From positions 22,013,292 through 22,077,291 of the forward strand of contig NC_133216.1 of NCBI RefSeq assembly GCF_040436345.1: DNA of 64,000 nt, read 5' to 3'. The notes under the pieces were generated by a model. The model saw only the letters and a list, made by a program, of their open reading frames with translations. It was not told where the DNA came from and did not search any database. Origin of the DNA: Pagrus major. Its lineage: Eukaryota > Chordata > Actinopteri > Spariformes > Sparidae. Of the stretch, positions 8,007 through 51,889 are shown piece after piece. A program made the translations under genes and the position numbers. Numbering within the stretch: the first letter of the stretch is position 1; each line of letters begins with the position of its first letter.

Positions 8007-29087
<21,081 letters not shown>

Positions 29088-29530
29088 GTTGGACCCGCAC
29101 CCCTCCCCGCTGTCTGCGCGAGAAAACCCCGTCTCTGCTGCTGGAAACTTCGGACTCAACTTTTTTTTTTTTTTTTTTTCACCTCCTGGTCCTCCCCCCC
29201 TTTTCTCTCAGTCCCCGAGCATTTCCAAGCAGAAAAACACGAGTTAGGCGCTACTGTTTCCCGATGTAGACATTATTTTAGCATAGCCACATCCACTCGC
29301 GACTCTCCGCTGCGACTTCAAAGTAGCCGCTCAGATTTTCGCCTGACTTCACGTCAAACTGCTCCGCGCCGTTCAAAACCGCAGCTCAATCCGAGCCCGA
29401 CGACTCCCGCCCGGGTCTCCGGTCCCTCCTGTGCACGCCTAGACTTTTCCGACCAAATTCAGAGACGCTAAAAGGGCAAAAGTGAAAACCCTCAAGTCCC
29501 CGACGAGGCCTCCGTAGCACCTTTAACTTT
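29088..29530 (-). promoter_or_regulatory. golim4: golim4 promoter and 5' leader region
   Basis: A GC-rich, CpG-containing stretch just upstream of the ATG, rich in C-runs on the plus strand (CCTCCCCCCCTTTT near 29190). It fits a CpG-type promoter and leader. The transcription start was not located. Confidence 0.5.
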
Positions 29531-42590: not shown

Positions 42591-42690
42591 AGAAAATGAT
42601 GAAGGTGTTACCCAAGATCTTATTTCACTTTCTTTCGGCTGGACCTGTGGCAAGCGACGGGACATCGGACGGGTTACCACTTAACTAAAG
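42590..42690 (+). other. Candidate noncoding first exon of the GIMAP gene
   Basis: A moderately GC-rich stretch ending at a plausible donor CTAAAG|GTAGAT (42690). The next exon has an acceptor CAATCCCCAG at 43407 and carries the ATG. Left edge not determined. Confidence 0.35.
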
Positions 42691-43468: not shown

Positions 43469-43487
43469 ATGGCGACTGCAACATCAG
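43469..43487 (+). CDS. gimap8: GIMAP gene exon 1 (start codon)
   Basis: The exon (from acceptor CCCAG at 43407) has ATGGCGACTGCAACATCAG|GTGAGT and encodes MATATS. Phase 1. Confidence 0.8.
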
Positions 43488-46400
43488 GTGAGTCCCGTCA
43501 GTCTTTATTTGTCTTCTCTCTCTGTCCATGTTATATTGTAAATATTAGAAAAGTCCTTTGTCTTTAGATGTTTCTGTATAATCCAGTCTGTAAATCTTGG
43601 TTGTCACTCAGCTGACTGCTCATTTCAATCCAACACAACACTAAGTATGAAATCACTATAAACTGTAGCTCAGTGACAGACCATCACAGGGAGGGGATCC
43701 AGCTAACGTCAGGCCCACAGTCACAGTTCAGTCAACTGTACATCACATATTATTACTGGTTATTATTATAAGTAATGATTATTACTAGTGTTAGTGAATG
43801 ACTAATGTGTTCTAATTTATAAATATTCCTGCATTTAAAATAATACTGAGATTTGTGCCAATCCTAAACTAAACCATTGATTGATATCCTGTGTTATTTC
43901 AACTTTTTTTTTCTAGTTTAAAAGTCTCTCATGCGTTTATAAAAATTGGATTTTATTGTTGTTACAATTGTGTTCTTTGTCAAAGGGTTCAAAGCCAACA
44001 TAGTCCAAGTTGGTGTTAACAAAACGTGAAAGTTTGTTGGAATCGCATCACAAGCCTATGTGTTGTTTGAATCTGCAGTCATGAAATTTCTCACTACTAC
44101 CACCAACAGTCCTTGTGTTAGACACGTCATGTTGTTCAAAGCAGGTGTATTCCGTACAATATTAAATAAAACTAAATAATTATAAAGGAATTTTAAATAC
44201 GTAGGTGCCAAGTTATGATTATGTCTGTGATAATTACTGTAATGCAAGTTTATCATCACAATAAAAAGTGTAAAAAGGGGGAAAGATACCAATTGCTAAT
44301 AGCTAATTGATTATTTGGCCTACCAGTCTGAATCAACTACAGTTTTCGCAGCAGCCACGTCTCAGGTCTGTGTGTCAATATGTCAAATTGATCCAAGTGG
44401 ACTCTATTAGCTTCCATTACCTATTGTGTCATCATCATCATGATATAAAACATGTATTTTTTGAGGCAGACAGAGAATGTGAACTATGAACTGTGCTGTG
44501 AAGGAAAAATGATGTGCTGTTGCTCTTTTCCATCACAGCTACTTGTTAATTGGTGGAGCATCATGCTGCAGCTAGAGGTGGTGTTGTCTCTCTGTTTGAG
44601 TCTGTTCAGGTCCACCACATTCTGGATCTGGTCTAATTAGCCTTGGGTCTACTTAGGACTGGGTTGGACTCACCTATAGGGTCTTTTTCAGTAGGGTTTT
44701 TTTTTTAAAAATTTTGTTTACAGTACGTTGGGTTCTAACAGGTTTTATATGTTTGTTTTAGATCTGTTCCAAAGTTTTCGAAAATTACATTGGTCATTTA
44801 AATGACAATATTGTAATGAGAAGGTCTACTATAATGTACATGTAATCACATCAATAAATAAATGAATGCTGTTTCCTTACATTTACAGGTGATCTGCAAC
44901 CTCTGAAACGCAGCAGCAGCTATGAGTTACTGCCACCTTCCAGTGAGTCAAACTTAACTGTGTTATCCTATTAAAGAATATCCGAGTTTACAATATTTCA
45001 AAGGAAAAATTTTAATGTAAGAAACTAAATAGCAGTGAAACTATAAATTAGTAAATGCATGTCTGTGCTTAGTTGCCTTTTCTTAACCTTTGTTCTTCAC
45101 AGTGTCTGAGCTGAGGGTTGTTCTGCTGGGGAACAGCTGGTCTGAGAGGAGTTCAGTGGGGAACTTCATACTGGGAGTAACTACATTCACCCAAGCACCT
45201 AAATGCAGTCTGAAAATCGGTGGACCGCTGGAGCAGAAAAAAATAACTGTGATCAACACAGGAGAACTGCTTCATTTTAACTTCTCTCAGCACGATCTTA
45301 CACAGTTTACAGATGAATGCATGAAACTCTCCGATCCTGGACCTCATGTGTTCTTGCTGGTTATACAGCCTGAAGACTTCAATGAAGTACAAAAACGAAG
45401 GCTTCAATCAATCCTTGAGAACTTCGGTGATCAATCATTTGATCATTCGATGGTTCTGATATCAACACCCAGAGTGAAGAGTTCAGCTTTCATGGAAAAA
45501 TACATGGAACATCCTCAACTAAAAGATTTGATCAGAATGTGTAAATACAGATATTTGTGGCTGAAGAACCTTGGACATTCAGAGCTGTTAACACGCTTGT
45601 CTCAAATCGTAAAGGAGAACGATGGAGATCATGTCAGCTGTGATGTGTTTGTGGACTCAGCATCTTCTTTACCAGGTGATCATCAAAGCCCGCGACAAAA
45701 GGAAACAGGGACATCTATCATAGATGCTGTTAAAAGTGCTGGTAAGTGCTGAAACTATTCTAACAATTAAAACTTTGTCGTACAAATCCCCTTTGATTAA
45801 ATTTAAACATTTATTAACAAGTTAATGATATAATTTTTTTTCCCGGGCTGGATGTGTTTGAAGGAATCACTGCTCAAGTCTCATGGGAAAACCCTTCAAC
45901 TCGCAGTAAGTAAATTCATTACAATGCTAATTATGTATTTGCATGTAGATTTTTGGTGGCATATTTTCTCCAGAATGAACCCAAATACATCCCAAAAAGT
46001 ATAAAAAAATAAAATAAAATGCTATGTGTTATGTTATTATCTCCCATCTGTTGAATTCAGTTTTAGCTACTTTGTACTCGGTACAAGACATACTGTACAT
46101 ATATTTTATGAGAAATGTGACACTGTTTTTACATTTCACATTCCTCTACTGAAGGAGGGAATGTCTGTGCACTTCCCTAAAAACTGAAATTTAAACATAC
46201 ACTGAGCAAGCCAAATTTGATACATCACACATTCGAAACCAGACGGTGTCTAATATGAAATACTACTACTGCCAATAAGCCAATTCCTATGCAAACCTAG
46301 TTTGCTCTCAGGATAAACAGATATTACATATACTATGAAAAGCTCAGCCAGATGGAATATATTTTTTGTTAACTTAGGTAAGACCTCATGTATATACAGT

Positions 46401-49400
46401 ATTTTCTGTGTCAATGTGAATACACTGTAGCATTGTATCAGATTATTGTACATTTCACAACCACTAAGCTGTTGTTGACTTAATTTTTCACTGGTGAGAA
46501 GAAGTACTTACTCATTTTTGGGGATATTTGGGGATCGTTCTTTAGATAAAATCCATTAGCCATGCAAAAATCAAGATGGTTGCCATTTTTCCAAGATGAC
46601 TGAAATAAATGAAGTCATAATTTTTTTTACCACAGAAAATTTTGATTTCTAACTGTAGAAAGGCTAAGAGGTATGATTGGACCAATTTTAAATGTACAAC
46701 CGGTTTGATATAAGGCCGGACCTGTAATACCAAATTTTACAATGAGAGAGTCAGCAGCTCCCAGGAGGAACATAATGAGAGCCCATGAATGAGAGTGTAG
46801 CAGCACTACAGTCCATCAGGGCAACTGCAACATGTTGTGTTTTCATTTCTCATAACAACAATTCAACTTGACACCCTCCAAATCTCCAAAATGGCAGCCA
46901 TCTTGCCATTTTGGTTGAACAATTTTTTTGCTTATCTGCTGCCCTAACAAGCCATCAAACAATATAAACAAAACTAACTACTATCACCATTTTAATAAGT
47001 CTGCTTGTTGTCAATTTCAATTCACAACAGAGTCCTTACTAAGACTAAGTGTTACTAAGGCTTAAACACGTTTGGTTGAATCCGTCTGCTGTTTCCATAA
47101 CCGCTAACTATTTTTCTGTGAATTGCTGCTACACTGGTCAGCCTAGCACAAGCAGCAGTGGTGGGTAGGGCATGAGGTTATTGATTAATAGATCCAGAGC
47201 TTATTAATGAGGGATTTTCTTCTTTTTTTTTTTTTTTTTTTACTTTTAATGTTGGAAAACCATGTTAAACAAAATATTAATCAATATTAATCATAGCAGA
47301 AAATGTGTCTTGAGGGTAACATTAATGTTTCTGACCACCACTACATCTTTTCTAAAATGTAATTTCTTATGTACAGTAAAACAGTTGTATAAGAAAGTAA
47401 TTTGGTTAACTGTGAATAATATAATGACACATCACAAATTTTAATCAGAAGAGAAAGATCTTTTTATATCTAAACAAACAAAATAAACAAACTCTTGTCA
47501 TTTTCATGACTGAGTAAACTGAAACAACAACAAACTGACCTTAAAGGACAACTAAATTTCATACTGTTTTAATTTGTTTATATGTGGCGGACCCTGCCAC
47601 CCTTCTAGCTTCAAACAGTGTTCTGGGACCTTATTTTCCTCTGAGAACAGCTTGTTTATTCAGTTATGGAAAATACATATTTCTGAGTTTCTATTATTAC
47701 CTCATTAATGTAAATATAAAAATTCTGAGTTTGAATTTCTTCTCCAAACTGCATAGTGCCCCTTTAACAACATATTGGCACTTTGAATTGAACCAAAACA
47801 TTGGCAAATTCTGTAAGTGACTGAAGAGATCTCCTCACATAGCAGATTTCCACTAAGTCACTGCAGTGCTGCATGTCAGCAAACCCAATTGACACATGCC
47901 ATAGACATCACCTGTGCATTACTTCACCAAGTTACCTGCCACTCTGTATACAAAAAGGCTATCATACCAAAAATAAATGCAAGGCTAAACAAATGGATAA
48001 AAGGCTCACATCAGCCAAGTGTGTTGAGTTCAGCCTCAGAGGGAGGATATTTCATTTTTATCTTTCTCTCTGTTGTATTTCAGCAGCTGGATTCAGGATT
48101 GTGCTGCTGGGAAAAAGTGAGGACAAACAGACAAAAGTTGGCAACTTCATTATCGGGGACCAAGCTTTTCATTACCAAATAACTTCCCGAACCAGACAGT
48201 GTGTGGCCACGTGTCGAGAATGGAACGGGAAACCACTGACAGTAGTGAAAACTCCACATAACATGTTTAGTCTACCTTCTGACATTATGAAAAGAGAGGT
48301 GAAGAGCTGTATGACTCTTTGTCCTCCTGGACCAAATGTTCTCCTGCTTTTAGTGAAGCCATCTAATTTCACTGAGGAGGACAGACAAAAGCTAATGCTC
48401 ATCCTGAGTTTGTTTGGTCGTGATGCTCTAAAACGCTCGATGGTCATTGTGACACATGAGGGGAATGAAATGAATGTCCATGTGAATGATCTCCTTCAAA
48501 AGTGTGGAGGAAGACACTGCAGTATTTCTCAAGATGACCACAGATTGTTAATGAAAAGGATTGAAGAAACAGCAAATGCAATCAGTGAAACTCCCCCCTC
48601 TGCTTTAAACCTGGTTCTGTGTGGGAGGAGAGGAGCAGGGAAGACTTCAGCCGCCAAGGCCATTTTAGGTCAGACTTATTCAGTCTCCACCTCATCAGAG
48701 TGTGGTCACAGTCAGGGAGAGGTGTGTGGACGTTGGGTTTCCCTGGTTGAGCTGCCTGCCTTGTGTGGAAAACCGCAGGAGGAAGTGATGAAGGAATCGA
48801 TCAGGTGTATCTCCCGCTTTGATCCTGAGGGTGTCCATGCCTTAATCCTGGTCCTACCTGTGGGTCCCCTCACTGATGATGACAAGGGAGAGTTAGAGAC
48901 CATTCAGAAAACTTTCAGCTCTCGAGTCAATGACTTCACTATGATTCTCTTCACTGTGGAGTCAGATCCTACAGCTCCAGCTTTTCGTAGCTTTGTGAGT
49001 AAGACCAAAGCCATCCAGGACCTCTGTCAAAGTTGTGAAGAAAGATATGTTTTTCTCAACATCAAGGACAAGCAGCAGATCCCAAAGCTGTTGGACATGG
49101 TGGAAAATATGAGATCCTCTGAAGACAAACCATCATCCTACACAACAGAAACATTTGCATTTGCCCAAGTAGAAAAGATCAGCACACTACAGACTGAACT
49201 GACGGACCTGAAAACAAACTGCAGGGGCATCTGTAAGTAATATAAATAATAATTTAGATGATAATAAATCAAAATATTTTTTCTGTGTTCTTTAAGTAAC
49301 TCATGATCTTTATATTTCATAGATGATGACGAGGAACAGAGCCCAGAGGGTCTCAGGATTGTGCTGGTAGGGAAGACTGGCAGTGGGAAGAGCTCCTCAG

Positions 49401-51889
49401 GAAACACCATTCTAAGAAAAGAAGAGTTTGAGGCCGATGTATGCCAAACATCAGTCACTAAACGTTGTCAGAAAGCACATTGTGAGGTGGATGGTCGTCC
49501 AGTTGTTCTGGTCGACACTCCTGGTCTGTTCGACACAACATTGTCCAATGATGAGGTTAATGAGGAGATGGTGAAATGCATCAGTCTTTTGGCTCCAGGA
49601 CCACATGTCTTCCTCTTGGTGATACAAATTGGTAGGTTTACAAAAGAGGAGAAAGATACATTAAATCTCATCAAGGAAGTATTTGGGGAAAATTCAGGAA
49701 AGTTCACCATCATTCTTTTAACTGGGGGTGATAACCTAAAGAAGCTATCCATCGATGACTACATCAAAAACAAATGTGATGAATCATTCAAAATTCTGAT
49801 TGAAAATTGTGGAGGAAGATACCACGTTTTTAACAACAATGATGAAGGAAACCGCACACAAGTCAGTGAGTTGATAACCAAGATTGACGAAATGGTGAAG
49901 AGAAATGGCAATAGCTGCTACACTAATGAGATGTTCCAGGAGGCTGAGGCAGCAATAAAGAAACAAATGGAGATAATCCTGAAGGAGAGGGAAGAGGAGA
50001 TGAGGAGGGAGAGGGAGGAACTTCAAAGAAAGCATGAGGAAGAAATAGAAGCAATGAAAAAAAGAATGGAAGAACAGAGGGCAGAAATTGAAGAGGAGAG
50101 AAAACTGAGAGAAAAACAACTTGAAGAAATGAAGGCAAACATCAAGAAAGAACAGGAAGAGAGAAAAAATGAACAGGAAATGAGAAAAGAAGAAGAAAAG
50201 AAGAAAAAACAAGAGGATGAAATTCAGAAACAGGATTGGAAGCAAAAAGTTGAAGCTTTGGAGCAAAAAATAAGATCTGAGTCAGAATTAAAGGAAAGCA
50301 TTTACAGAAAGCTGGGAGAGAGCAGAGAAGAGATGAGAAGAGAACGGGAGAATGAGGTGAACAAACAACAAGAATGGTGGGGAAAACGACGTCAAGAAGA
50401 TGAACAGAGACGACAAGAAGAACAAGCAAAACTAAGAAAGCTTCAAGAAGAATACGAACAAGAAAGACAAAATTATGAGAAGAAAAGAAAAGAAGAGGAC
50501 CGAATCAGAAAAGAACAAGAGGAAAGAGAGAAAAAAGACATTGAGGAAGAACAGAGAGCAAGAACTGAAAATGAGAGAAAAGTGAGAGAAAAACAACTTC
50601 AAGAAATGGAAGAAAACATTAAGAAGGAGCGAGAAGAGAGAAAGAAAGAACATGAAAGGAGAAATGTAGAAGACATGAAGAGACAACAACAGGAAGAAAG
50701 TAAACGACAGAAATGGGAACAAGAAGTTAAAGCTTTGGAGCAAAAAATAAGTTTAGAGTCAGAATCAAAGGAAAGCGTTTACAGAAAACTGGAGGAGAGT
50801 AGAGAAGAGATGAGAAAAGAACGAGATGACCTTGAAAAAAAACAAAAAGAATGGTGGGTCAAACGACATCAAGAAGATGAAGAGAGACGACAGGAGGAAC
50901 AAATGAGACTTCGAAAGCTGCAAGAAGAATATGAGCAAAAAAGAGAAAACTATGAAAAGAAACAAAAGGAAGAGGACCAAATCAGAACAGAAAAAGAGGA
51001 AAAAGAGAAAAAAGACATCAAGGAGAACCATAAGAAAGAAGTGGAGCGCATAAAGAAAAAATATGAAGAAGAGGCCAGAAATACAGCTGAAGAGTTCAAT
51101 GAATTCAGAGAGAAGAAGGAGAAGGATTTTGCAGCTCTGATAGACGAACACATTAAGGAAGTGACGGATCTGAAGCAACAGCAAGACAAAGAAATGCAGA
51201 AAAAGCAGGACGAATATGACGGATTGAAAGACCTTTCATCCCATAAAGAAAACAATCTGAAGCAAGAAATGGACAAAGTACAGAACAAACATAAACAAGA
51301 ATTGACTGACTTGATACTGCAAATTCTGACCCAAAGGAAAGACAACAGGAAAAAAATAAGGACAAAGCAAGACACACACAAAAAAGAGCTGGCTAACCTT
51401 GAAAAAGAACTTTCGGACAAAAACCAAAGAAAAGAGAAGAAACAAATGGATGAATTAAAGAAAGAACATGATCAAGAAATGAAAGCATTGGACAAAAAAC
51501 TTTTGACCCAAAACAAAGCACATCAGAGCTTAGAAAGGGCCAAGTTGTCTGCAAAACACATAGAAGAAAAGTTGGAAATGAAACAAAAGATTGTGACCCA
51601 GCAAAAACAAAAACGGAAGGAACGCATTGGTAATTTAAAAGAACGGCATGAACAAATCATGAATGAATTCAAACAGAGCGTTTTAGATGAAAATGACAAA
51701 AAAGAGAAAGAAAAAGTGGGTGAACTACAGAAGACACACGACGAAGAGATGATTGTGTTAAAGCAGCTACTGACTGAAGATGTAGACGAAGAAATAGATG
51801 AACTGCAAAAAAAACACAAAGAAGAAATGAATGACCTTAAAGGTAAACTCTTGACCACCACAGACAACTCATGGTGTTCAGCTTCATGA
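43469..51889 (+). CDS. gimap8: GIMAP8-like protein: four AIG1-type domains plus long coiled-coil tail
   Basis: Six coding exons join in phase to 4470 nt (1489 aa): 43469-43487, 44889-44942, 45103-45741, 45864-45905, 48084-49232, 49323-51889. GIMAPs are AIG1-type GTPases of immune cells (family knowledge). Domain 1 (about 28-215) has [16 protein letters not shown], lacking the P-loop Lys-Ser. Domain 2 (about 255-425) has [16 protein letters not shown], also without GKS/T. Domain 3 (about 427-600) has an intact P-loop GRRGAGKT (432-439) but LVELPALCG instead of DTPG. Domain 4 (about 645-835) is canonical: [15 protein letters not shown] (651-665), DTPGLFD (699-705) and the conserved box [20 protein letters not shown]. 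From about 840 to the end the sequence is Glu/Lys/Arg/Gln-rich coiled coil with a tandem 159-residue repeat. There is no transmembrane segment or lipid box. The start context (ATCATGG) is good. Poly(A) signal near 52902. Confidence 0.9.
44889..44942 (+). CDS. gimap8: GIMAP gene exon 2
   Basis: Acceptor ATTTACAG|GTG, donor TCCA|GTGAGT. Encodes [18 protein letters not shown], a leader I recall from other fish GIMAPs. Too short for a simple ORF scan. Confidence 0.85.
45103..45741 (+). CDS. gimap8: GIMAP gene exon 3 (degenerate AIG1 domain 1)
   Basis: Acceptor TTCTTCACAG|TG, donor GCTG|GTAAGT. Encodes [20 protein letters not shown]..., the conserved box [18 protein letters not shown] and LISTPR; the G1 lysine and G3 DTPG are absent (VINTGEL). 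Confidence 0.9.
45864..45905 (+). CDS. gimap8: GIMAP gene exon 4 (linker)
   Basis: Acceptor TGTTTGAAG|GA, donor CGCA|GTAAGT. Encodes the short linker [14 protein letters not shown] between domains 1 and 2. The call rests on splice sites and phase. Confidence 0.7.
45906..48083 (+). other. gimap8: GIMAP gene intron 4
   Basis: AT-rich, with a poly-T run at 47220-47241 and the dispersed repeat at 47.5-47.8 kb. No further exon recognised. Confidence 0.5.
47475..47767. repeat. Dispersed repeat, copy 2, in GIMAP intron 4
   Basis: Same ordered blocks as 30163-30475 (GGCGGACCCTGCCACC, CTAGCTTCAAACAGTGTT, TTCTGAGTTTGAATTTCTTC), same orientation. Confidence 0.65.
48084..49232 (+). CDS. gimap8: GIMAP gene exon 5 (AIG1-type domains 2 and 3)
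   Basis: Acceptor TTTCAG|CAG|CTG is a NAGNAG tandem site (start 48084 or 48087). Donor ATCT|GTAAGT. Encodes [40 protein letters not shown], then [20 protein letters not shown] and the box [20 protein letters not shown]. Confidence 0.92.
49323..51889 (+). CDS. gimap8: GIMAP gene exon 6 (canonical AIG1 domain and coiled-coil tail)
   Basis: Acceptor ATATTTCATAG|AT. Encodes the intact domain with [39 protein letters not shown] and LTGGDNL, then an uninterrupted charged helix of about 650 residues to the stop at 51887-51889. The long frames seen on the opposite strand are composition shadows. Confidence 0.95.
50090..51017 (+). repeat. gimap8: In-frame 477-bp tandem duplication in the GIMAP tail
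   Basis: 50090-50540 and 50567-51017 align at a constant offset of 477 bp (159 codons) without indels. Examples are [56 protein letters not shown] and [10 protein letters not shown] in both. By eye about two thirds of residues are identical. Confidence 0.85.

Follow-up and report, generated by a model that had tools for sequence, protein, structure and literature searches.

The stretch analysed here, referred to below as the window, comprises 64,000 nucleotides of the Pagrus major genome (786 Mb, 25 contigs) at C2:22013292-22077291. Six exons with GT-AG borders at positions 43469-51889 of the window join into one reading frame of 1489 amino acids (aa), which would encode a GIMAP protein with four AIG1 domains (D1 to D4) and a long charged tail (Table 1). 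The exon coordinates, exon number, intron phase and protein length proposed in an earlier sequence-only reading were all correct when we rejoined the exons and checked their borders. Its list of features did not include the C-terminal CaaX-like box, the duplication with a period of 477 bp, the distal repeats or the paralogue family, all described below. The chance of such open frames, estimated from base composition alone, is ~4e-13 at a length of 382 codons and 1.5e-28 at 855 codons. All five introns are in phase 1, so that any subset of the exons would join in phase; the in-phase joining on which that reading relied is true, but it is weak evidence for linkage.

Exon 4 is the doubtful part of the model. 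Its acceptor has the lowest score (72.6th percentile, the remaining acceptors being at the 93rd or above), and where four of six paralogues have CAG and one has TAG before GGCT, the window has CCC. Skipping this exon leaves the frame intact, and a tblastn comparison of exon 4 with the paralogues gave weak matches only (best E 1.3). Since the acceptor is poor and the paralogue acceptor is not kept in the window, exon 4 may be optional, in which case the protein would be 1475 aa long.

Table 1. Positions in the window of the exons, domains and tail elements of the GIMAP gene
Feature	Position	Strand	Description
Exon 1	43469..43487	+	Start codon, MATATSG; phase-1 donor CAG|GTGAGT; blastn matches in 2/20 paralogue stretches (L026, L029)
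Exon 2	44889..44942	+	Leader peptide; blastn matches in 13/20 paralogue stretches
Exon 3	45103..45741	+	AIG1 domain D1; Pfam AIG1 82.8 bits
D1	45103..45741 (exon 3)	+	Putative pseudo-GTPase: P-loop GNSWSERS, G3 INTG, no catalytic Arg
Exon 4	45864..45905	+	42 nt, 14 codons, doubtful; weak acceptor
Exon 5	48084..49232	+	D2 and D3; two Pfam AIG1 stretches, 179.3 bits
D2	48086..48583	+	Putative pseudo-GTPase: GKSEDKQT, G3 VKTP, no catalytic Arg
D3	48599..49231	+	P-loop GRRGAGKT intact, G3 ELPA, Arg to Pro
Exon 6	49323..51889	+	D4, entire tail and stop
D4	49325..49966	+	G1 GKTGSGKS, G3 DTPG, Arg equivalent to GIMAP7 R103; Pfam 223.9 bits
Proximal tail	49919..51058	+	Residues 834-1213; charged, single-alpha-helix-like, 380 residues
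Internal duplication, copy 1 (EWW block)	50058..50552	+	~81% DNA identity to copy 2; TRF period 477
Internal duplication, copy 2	50531..51028	+	TRF period 477 bp; ~81% identity to copy 1
Distal tail	51059..51874	+	Periodicity of 11 residues over residues 1214-1485; from ~51263, about seven units of 26-30 residues each
CSAS box	51875..51886	+	CaaX-like prenylation box at the C-terminal end; Cys is residue 1486

AIG1 was detected in all four domains, and the proteins of exons 3, 5 and 6 all scored above the Pfam cut-off of 27 bits. The G motifs are not intact in every domain: G1 and/or G3 is lost in D1, D2 and D3. The sequence-only reading had described D1 and D2 as lacking the P-loop Lys-Ser/Thr. 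The Lys (replaced by Arg and Gln) and the Gly are indeed lost, but the Ser/Thr is kept in both. D3 was found as described there, with an intact P-loop and no DTPG, and may bind nucleotide without hydrolysing it; D4 was rightly singled out as the only domain with both G1 and G3 intact. A phmmer comparison of D4 with GIMAP7 gave an E-value of 1.1e-49, and D4 shares 42% identity with GIMAP7, 41% with GIMAP4 and 39% with GIMAP2. The AlphaFold2 model of exon 5 (pLDDT 71.1) contains two alpha/beta domains, and the predicted structures of D3 and D4 are closest to those of solved GIMAPs, with the GIMAP fold present. Losses were not significantly more frequent at nucleotide-binding positions than at the other invariant positions (Fisher P 0.13, 0.17 and 0.33).

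The same genome contains at least 150 scored matches to PF04548 among 215 candidates. Twenty paralogue stretches of 10 kb were chosen around multi-domain AIG1 matches, and in 16 of these at least three of the four domain types D1-D4 follow one another in order; the remaining stretches comprise one with D3-D4, two with D1 only and one (C23) with three D4-like domains. Scans of viral contigs confirmed no relatives outside this genome, and a scan of genome contigs with exon 5 likewise found none. A scan of genome contigs with a GIMAP alignment gave two remote bacterial matches (L001 and L002; Anadelfobacter, Holosporales), which were not used. In other fishes, predicted proteins of this type carry the name GTPase IMAP family member 8-like.

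We take Arg103 (R103) of GIMAP7 to be the residue that is catalytic in trans; its position was placed from the title of structure 3zjc (L100Q variant) and by alignment. The following counts include the window, and the D1 set also takes in the three copies found in the two stretches with D1 only. In every D1 (14/14) the P-loop Lys is replaced by Arg and the G3 Asp by Asn, and the R103 position holds Asp. All 14 D2 domains have lost the P-loop Gly and have Lys for the G3 Asp; the P-loop Lys is kept in 4/14, and there is no Arg at the R103 position. In D3 the P-loop Lys (16/16) and mostly the Gly (12/16) are retained, the G3 Asp is lost throughout (16/16; Glu in 15, Lys in one), and Pro stands for the Arg in all 16. 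D4 keeps the P-loop Lys in 16/17, the G3 Asp in 15/17 and the R103-equivalent Arg in 14/17. Judged by these motifs, D1, D2 and D3 are pseudo-GTPase domains with marks of loss that are fixed in the family, and only D4 carries G1, G3 and the GIMAP7-type Arg. Since the same losses are kept across paralogues, they look like real design and not decay, and the use of these domains is unlikely to be ordinary GTP hydrolysis. The suggestion that the dead domains could dimerise onto the live one found no support in that form: no contact between D1-D3 and D4 is shown, and the R103-equivalent Arg is absent from every D1, D2 and D3 counted. As this Arg is missing, activation in trans of the GIMAP7 type is unlikely, and so is a role for D1-D3 as activators of that type.

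The tail (residues 834-1489, 656 aa) is 55% charged and contains no Pro and six Gly. Its proximal part is 62% charged and 17% hydrophobic, with 131 opposite-charge i,i+4 pairs (z +9.0) and 33 like-charge pairs (z -5.7). Its hydrophobic periodicity peaks at 3.6 (z 7.2, against 4.3 at 3.5), a figure that comes from few hydrophobic residues. By its charge pattern this part looks like a charged single alpha-helix. The same charge pattern was present in all 12 paralogue tails of at least 180 residues (z +3.1 to +6.7 over the first 180 residues). The distal part (residues 1214-1489, 276 aa) is 46% charged, with a weaker excess of opposite-charge i,i+4 pairs (z +2.3). Its periodicity peaks at 3.65-3.70 (z ~10), and no heptad coiled-coil periodicity was seen in it at 3.5 (z 0.9). 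Self-similarity over residues 1180-1489 peaks at offsets of 11 and 30 (z 5.1 and 4.9); the seven distal units follow one another in steps of 29, 30, 30, 30, 30 and 26, and the best six-unit ladder scored 34.3, whereas none of 60 shuffles exceeded 9.6. In the predicted model of D4 a helix runs unbroken across residues 201-362 of the model, and we expect the ~650 tail residues to be helical in both parts. The sequence-only reading had called the tail a coiled coil of ~650 residues. Its length, and its helicity where modelled, agree with this, but most of it does not look like a heptad coiled coil, and for the proximal 380 residues the term fits poorly.

The two copies of the duplication in the proximal tail differ over 150 codons by a non-synonymous rate (dN) of 0.17 and a synonymous rate (dS) of 0.58, a ratio of 0.29. 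Paralogue tails carry from none to four copies of the EWW block; in L021 (827 residues) it occurs at tail residues 137, 406, 562 and 718. Tail length ranges from 32 to 827 residues among 16 readable loci (L027 was masked and dropped), and the tail closest to that of the window is in L017 (58% over 647 columns).

CaaX ends were found in 11/16 readable paralogue tails (CVIL, CCIL, CSIL, CFIL, CIIL, CIIL, CSIL, CCIS, CCIL, CSIC and CSIQ). A Cys stands at position -4 in 12 of the 17 family tails, compared with a background of 4.6% among the remaining open frames in that DNA (P ~5e-13 assuming independence, which relatives violate). Among 12 other, hand-picked GIMAP ends (L006, L007 and L031-L040), five are CaaX (L006, L035, L036, L038 and L039). 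CSAS itself fits the CaaX rule (aliphatic a2, permitted X) loosely. These fish ends contrast with the statement in PMC3804274 that mammalian GIMAPs have no lipid-modification motif. Separately, we observed that the tails of L018, L020, L021 and L022 are possibly cut short, and that the multi-GIMAP tail of L026 has a hydrophobic, transmembrane-like end in place of CaaX.

We consider it fairly probable, from the motifs and models together, that this member of a fish GIMAP subfamily is a tethered scaffold, a prenyl-anchored stalk that bears a single GTP switch together with three docking modules of pseudo-GTPase type. A scaffold or tether had already been preferred to a simple small GTPase, and the fixed dead marks in the paralogues and the CaaX-like end strengthen that preference. 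In such a protein the C-terminus would be prenylated and would anchor it on a membrane, the proximal helix would act as a rigid spacer of ~57 nm (at 0.15 nm per residue), and the distal repeats might associate with themselves or with a partner close to the membrane. D4 would act as a switch that dimerises on GTP, in the manner reported for GIMAP2 and GIMAP7, whose GTPase control is described as dimer-dependent in a review (PMC8201404). D1-D3 would be nucleotide-independent docking modules, D3 being perhaps nucleotide-bound but inert, and the switch could present them to host or pathogen ligands.

Several observations weigh against the tethered scaffold. The G4 motif of D4 is atypical (LTGGDNL, compared with FT[RH]K[ED][ED]L in four human GIMAPs), and in three paralogues (L024-L026) D4 has lost the Arg as well, the other D4 departures also being there. 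At the anchor, five of the 16 readable paralogue tails (L018, L020, L021, L022 and L026) lack CaaX, and the a2 residue, which is Ile in each of the 11 CaaX paralogues, is Ala in the window, so that CSAS may be a weak or lost site. The border between the tail halves was set after viewing sliding windows. None of the five checked loci having both D1 and D2 holds them in one frame, so that the D1-D2 junction rests on splicing. Finally, median dN/dS reaches 0.57-0.72 in D1-D3 but 0.29 in D4, and some recent pairs stand at ~0.9 to 1.5, which points to weak constraint on the dead domains, or to constraint combined with diversifying selection.

This last point favours regarding the dead domains as relics of an ancestral multi-GIMAP whose D1-D3 ceased to bind nucleotide, leaving D4 and the tail as the parts that still matter. 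With comparisons restricted to pairs whose dS lay within 0.05-1.5, the paralogues gave a median dN/dS of 0.72 in D1 (75/78 pairs), 0.57 in D2 (75/78), 0.58 in D3 (93/105) and 0.29 in D4 (96/120); for the window against its paralogues it was 0.71 (13/13), 0.50 (13/13), 0.60 (15/15) and 0.23 (14/16), respectively. In addition, several paralogues showed no D2 or no D3 within their 10-kb stretch. Against decay, there is no internal stop in 14 D1, 14 D2 and 16 D3 sequences (44 in total, taken as tblastn hits), and the losses are identical in 14/14, 14/14 and 16/16. In D1 and D3, moreover, mean dN falls from 0.225 and 0.165, respectively, outside the P-loop stretch to 0.079 and 0.134 within it; in D2 the two values are much the same (0.256 and 0.253). 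For D1 the P-loop stretch is lower in dS as well. D1-D3 are thus domains that, on these alignments, evolve faster than D4, with the loss marks nevertheless fixed, and we regard the relic explanation as unlikely, though the best placed of the alternatives to the scaffold.

Between L011 and either L017 or L023 (all three on C5), dS is 0.11-0.25 in D1-D3 and 1.06-1.15 in D4. Low dS in one part and high dS in the other between the same genes fits gene conversion or exchange of a D1-D3 cassette between loci. A speculative extension of the scaffold, to which we give little weight, is that in a fish lineage GIMAPs became prenyl-anchored stalks of variable length, with the fast-evolving and seemingly exchanged D1-D3 cassette serving as recognition modules for pathogen ligands, or as decoys, read by D4.

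Guanylate-binding proteins (GBPs) are immune GTPases with a helical tail and a CaaX end. The combination of G domain, helical tail and CaaX-like end in the window, and the Arg kept in most D4 domains, would suit a coat of this kind, with GTP-dimerised D4 building a prenylated helical lattice on a membrane or microbe and D1-D3 providing contact surfaces or bulk. GBPs however belong to a different G-domain family, no GBP family was among the Pfam matches (to E 1), and there is no evidence of assembly; we consider a coat distinctly improbable.

The tethered scaffold presupposes that exons 3, 5 and 6 encode one protein, and this is supported mainly by frames shared among paralogues, which we checked in 12 loci. 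A single open frame takes in D2-D3-D4 in L011-L014 and in L021, D1-D3-D4 in L024 and L026, D1 and D3 in L019, and D2 together with D4 in L015 and L016. D3 and D4 share a frame in seven of the ten checked loci having both, and D1 and D3 do so in all three checked loci without D2 between. That exons 1-5 and exon 6 form two or more genes or separate mRNAs, or that exons are skipped to give, for example, D4 and tail alone, is favoured by the uniform intron phase, the weak exon 4 and the three loci (L017, L019 and L023) in which, as in the window, D3 and D4 occupy different frames, but the five D2-D3-D4 and two D1-D3-D4 frames and the leader exon matched in 13 of the 20 stretches make it very improbable.

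Research on GIMAPs has treated them as GTPases of lymphocytes that carry a single G domain, or three in GIMAP8. GIMAP8 resembles the present protein in having several AIG1 domains per chain, said in PMC4201521 to differ in conserved ways; guppy GIMAP8 is included in Fig. S4 of that paper. It differs in having three domains in 74.9 kDa (PMC3100574), described as three potential GTP-binding domains, whereas here there are four, three of them apparently pseudo-GTPases, and a 656-residue tail. In domain number and length, the protein departs from what a GIMAP8 orthologue would show (three AIG1 domains, ~75 kDa). GIMAP7, GIMAP4 and GIMAP2 (3zjc, 3lxx and 2xtm) share motifs and fold with D4, but have a single G domain and no pseudo-GTPase array. 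Arabidopsis AIG1/IAN8, a plant protein compared by description, has an AIG1 domain and is called prenylated in a review (PMC6866125). The expanded AIG/GIMAP family of Biomphalaria also combines AIG1 with a coiled coil, and includes partial AIG genes and five architectures with two AIG1 domains; among the architectures described in the accessible part of that paper there is no four-domain pseudo-GTPase layout (PMC7053062). Our searches of an open-licence library turned up no printed description of the architecture seen here. As in the proximal tail, i,i+3 and i,i+4 pairs dominate the charge pattern of the single alpha-helices of drebrin and myosin VI, and the drebrin helix has an aromatic pair that we liken to this tail; those helices were measured, whereas the one here is known by computation alone (PMC12203971). 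Three domains with family-fixed losses of key residues make the role of extra GIMAP domains directly testable.

In a marine fish, 36 gimap genes, gimap8 included, are listed among up-regulated interferon-stimulated genes (PMC9204966), and in anchovy GIMAP8 is among the expanded families (PMC13403563). The interferon-type motif GAAANNGAAA occurs 10 times in the window against 5.04 expected, a number reached by 6 of 100 shuffles, which gives no clear support; the nearest GAAANNGAAA is at 42623-42632 on the minus strand, ~840 bases ahead of the start codon. A search for leader peptides in the paralogue stretches by regular expression found none, whereas blastn did match exon 2.

Elsewhere in the window, three open frames lie on the minus strand between 11361 and 29207 (11361-11777, 13428-13799 and 28800-29207). 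We take these to resemble golim4, and none of the three matched a Pfam family above the cut-off. Positions 9252-9852 hold a very long CA/TG dinucleotide run, which reads as His-Thr or Cys-Val open frames.

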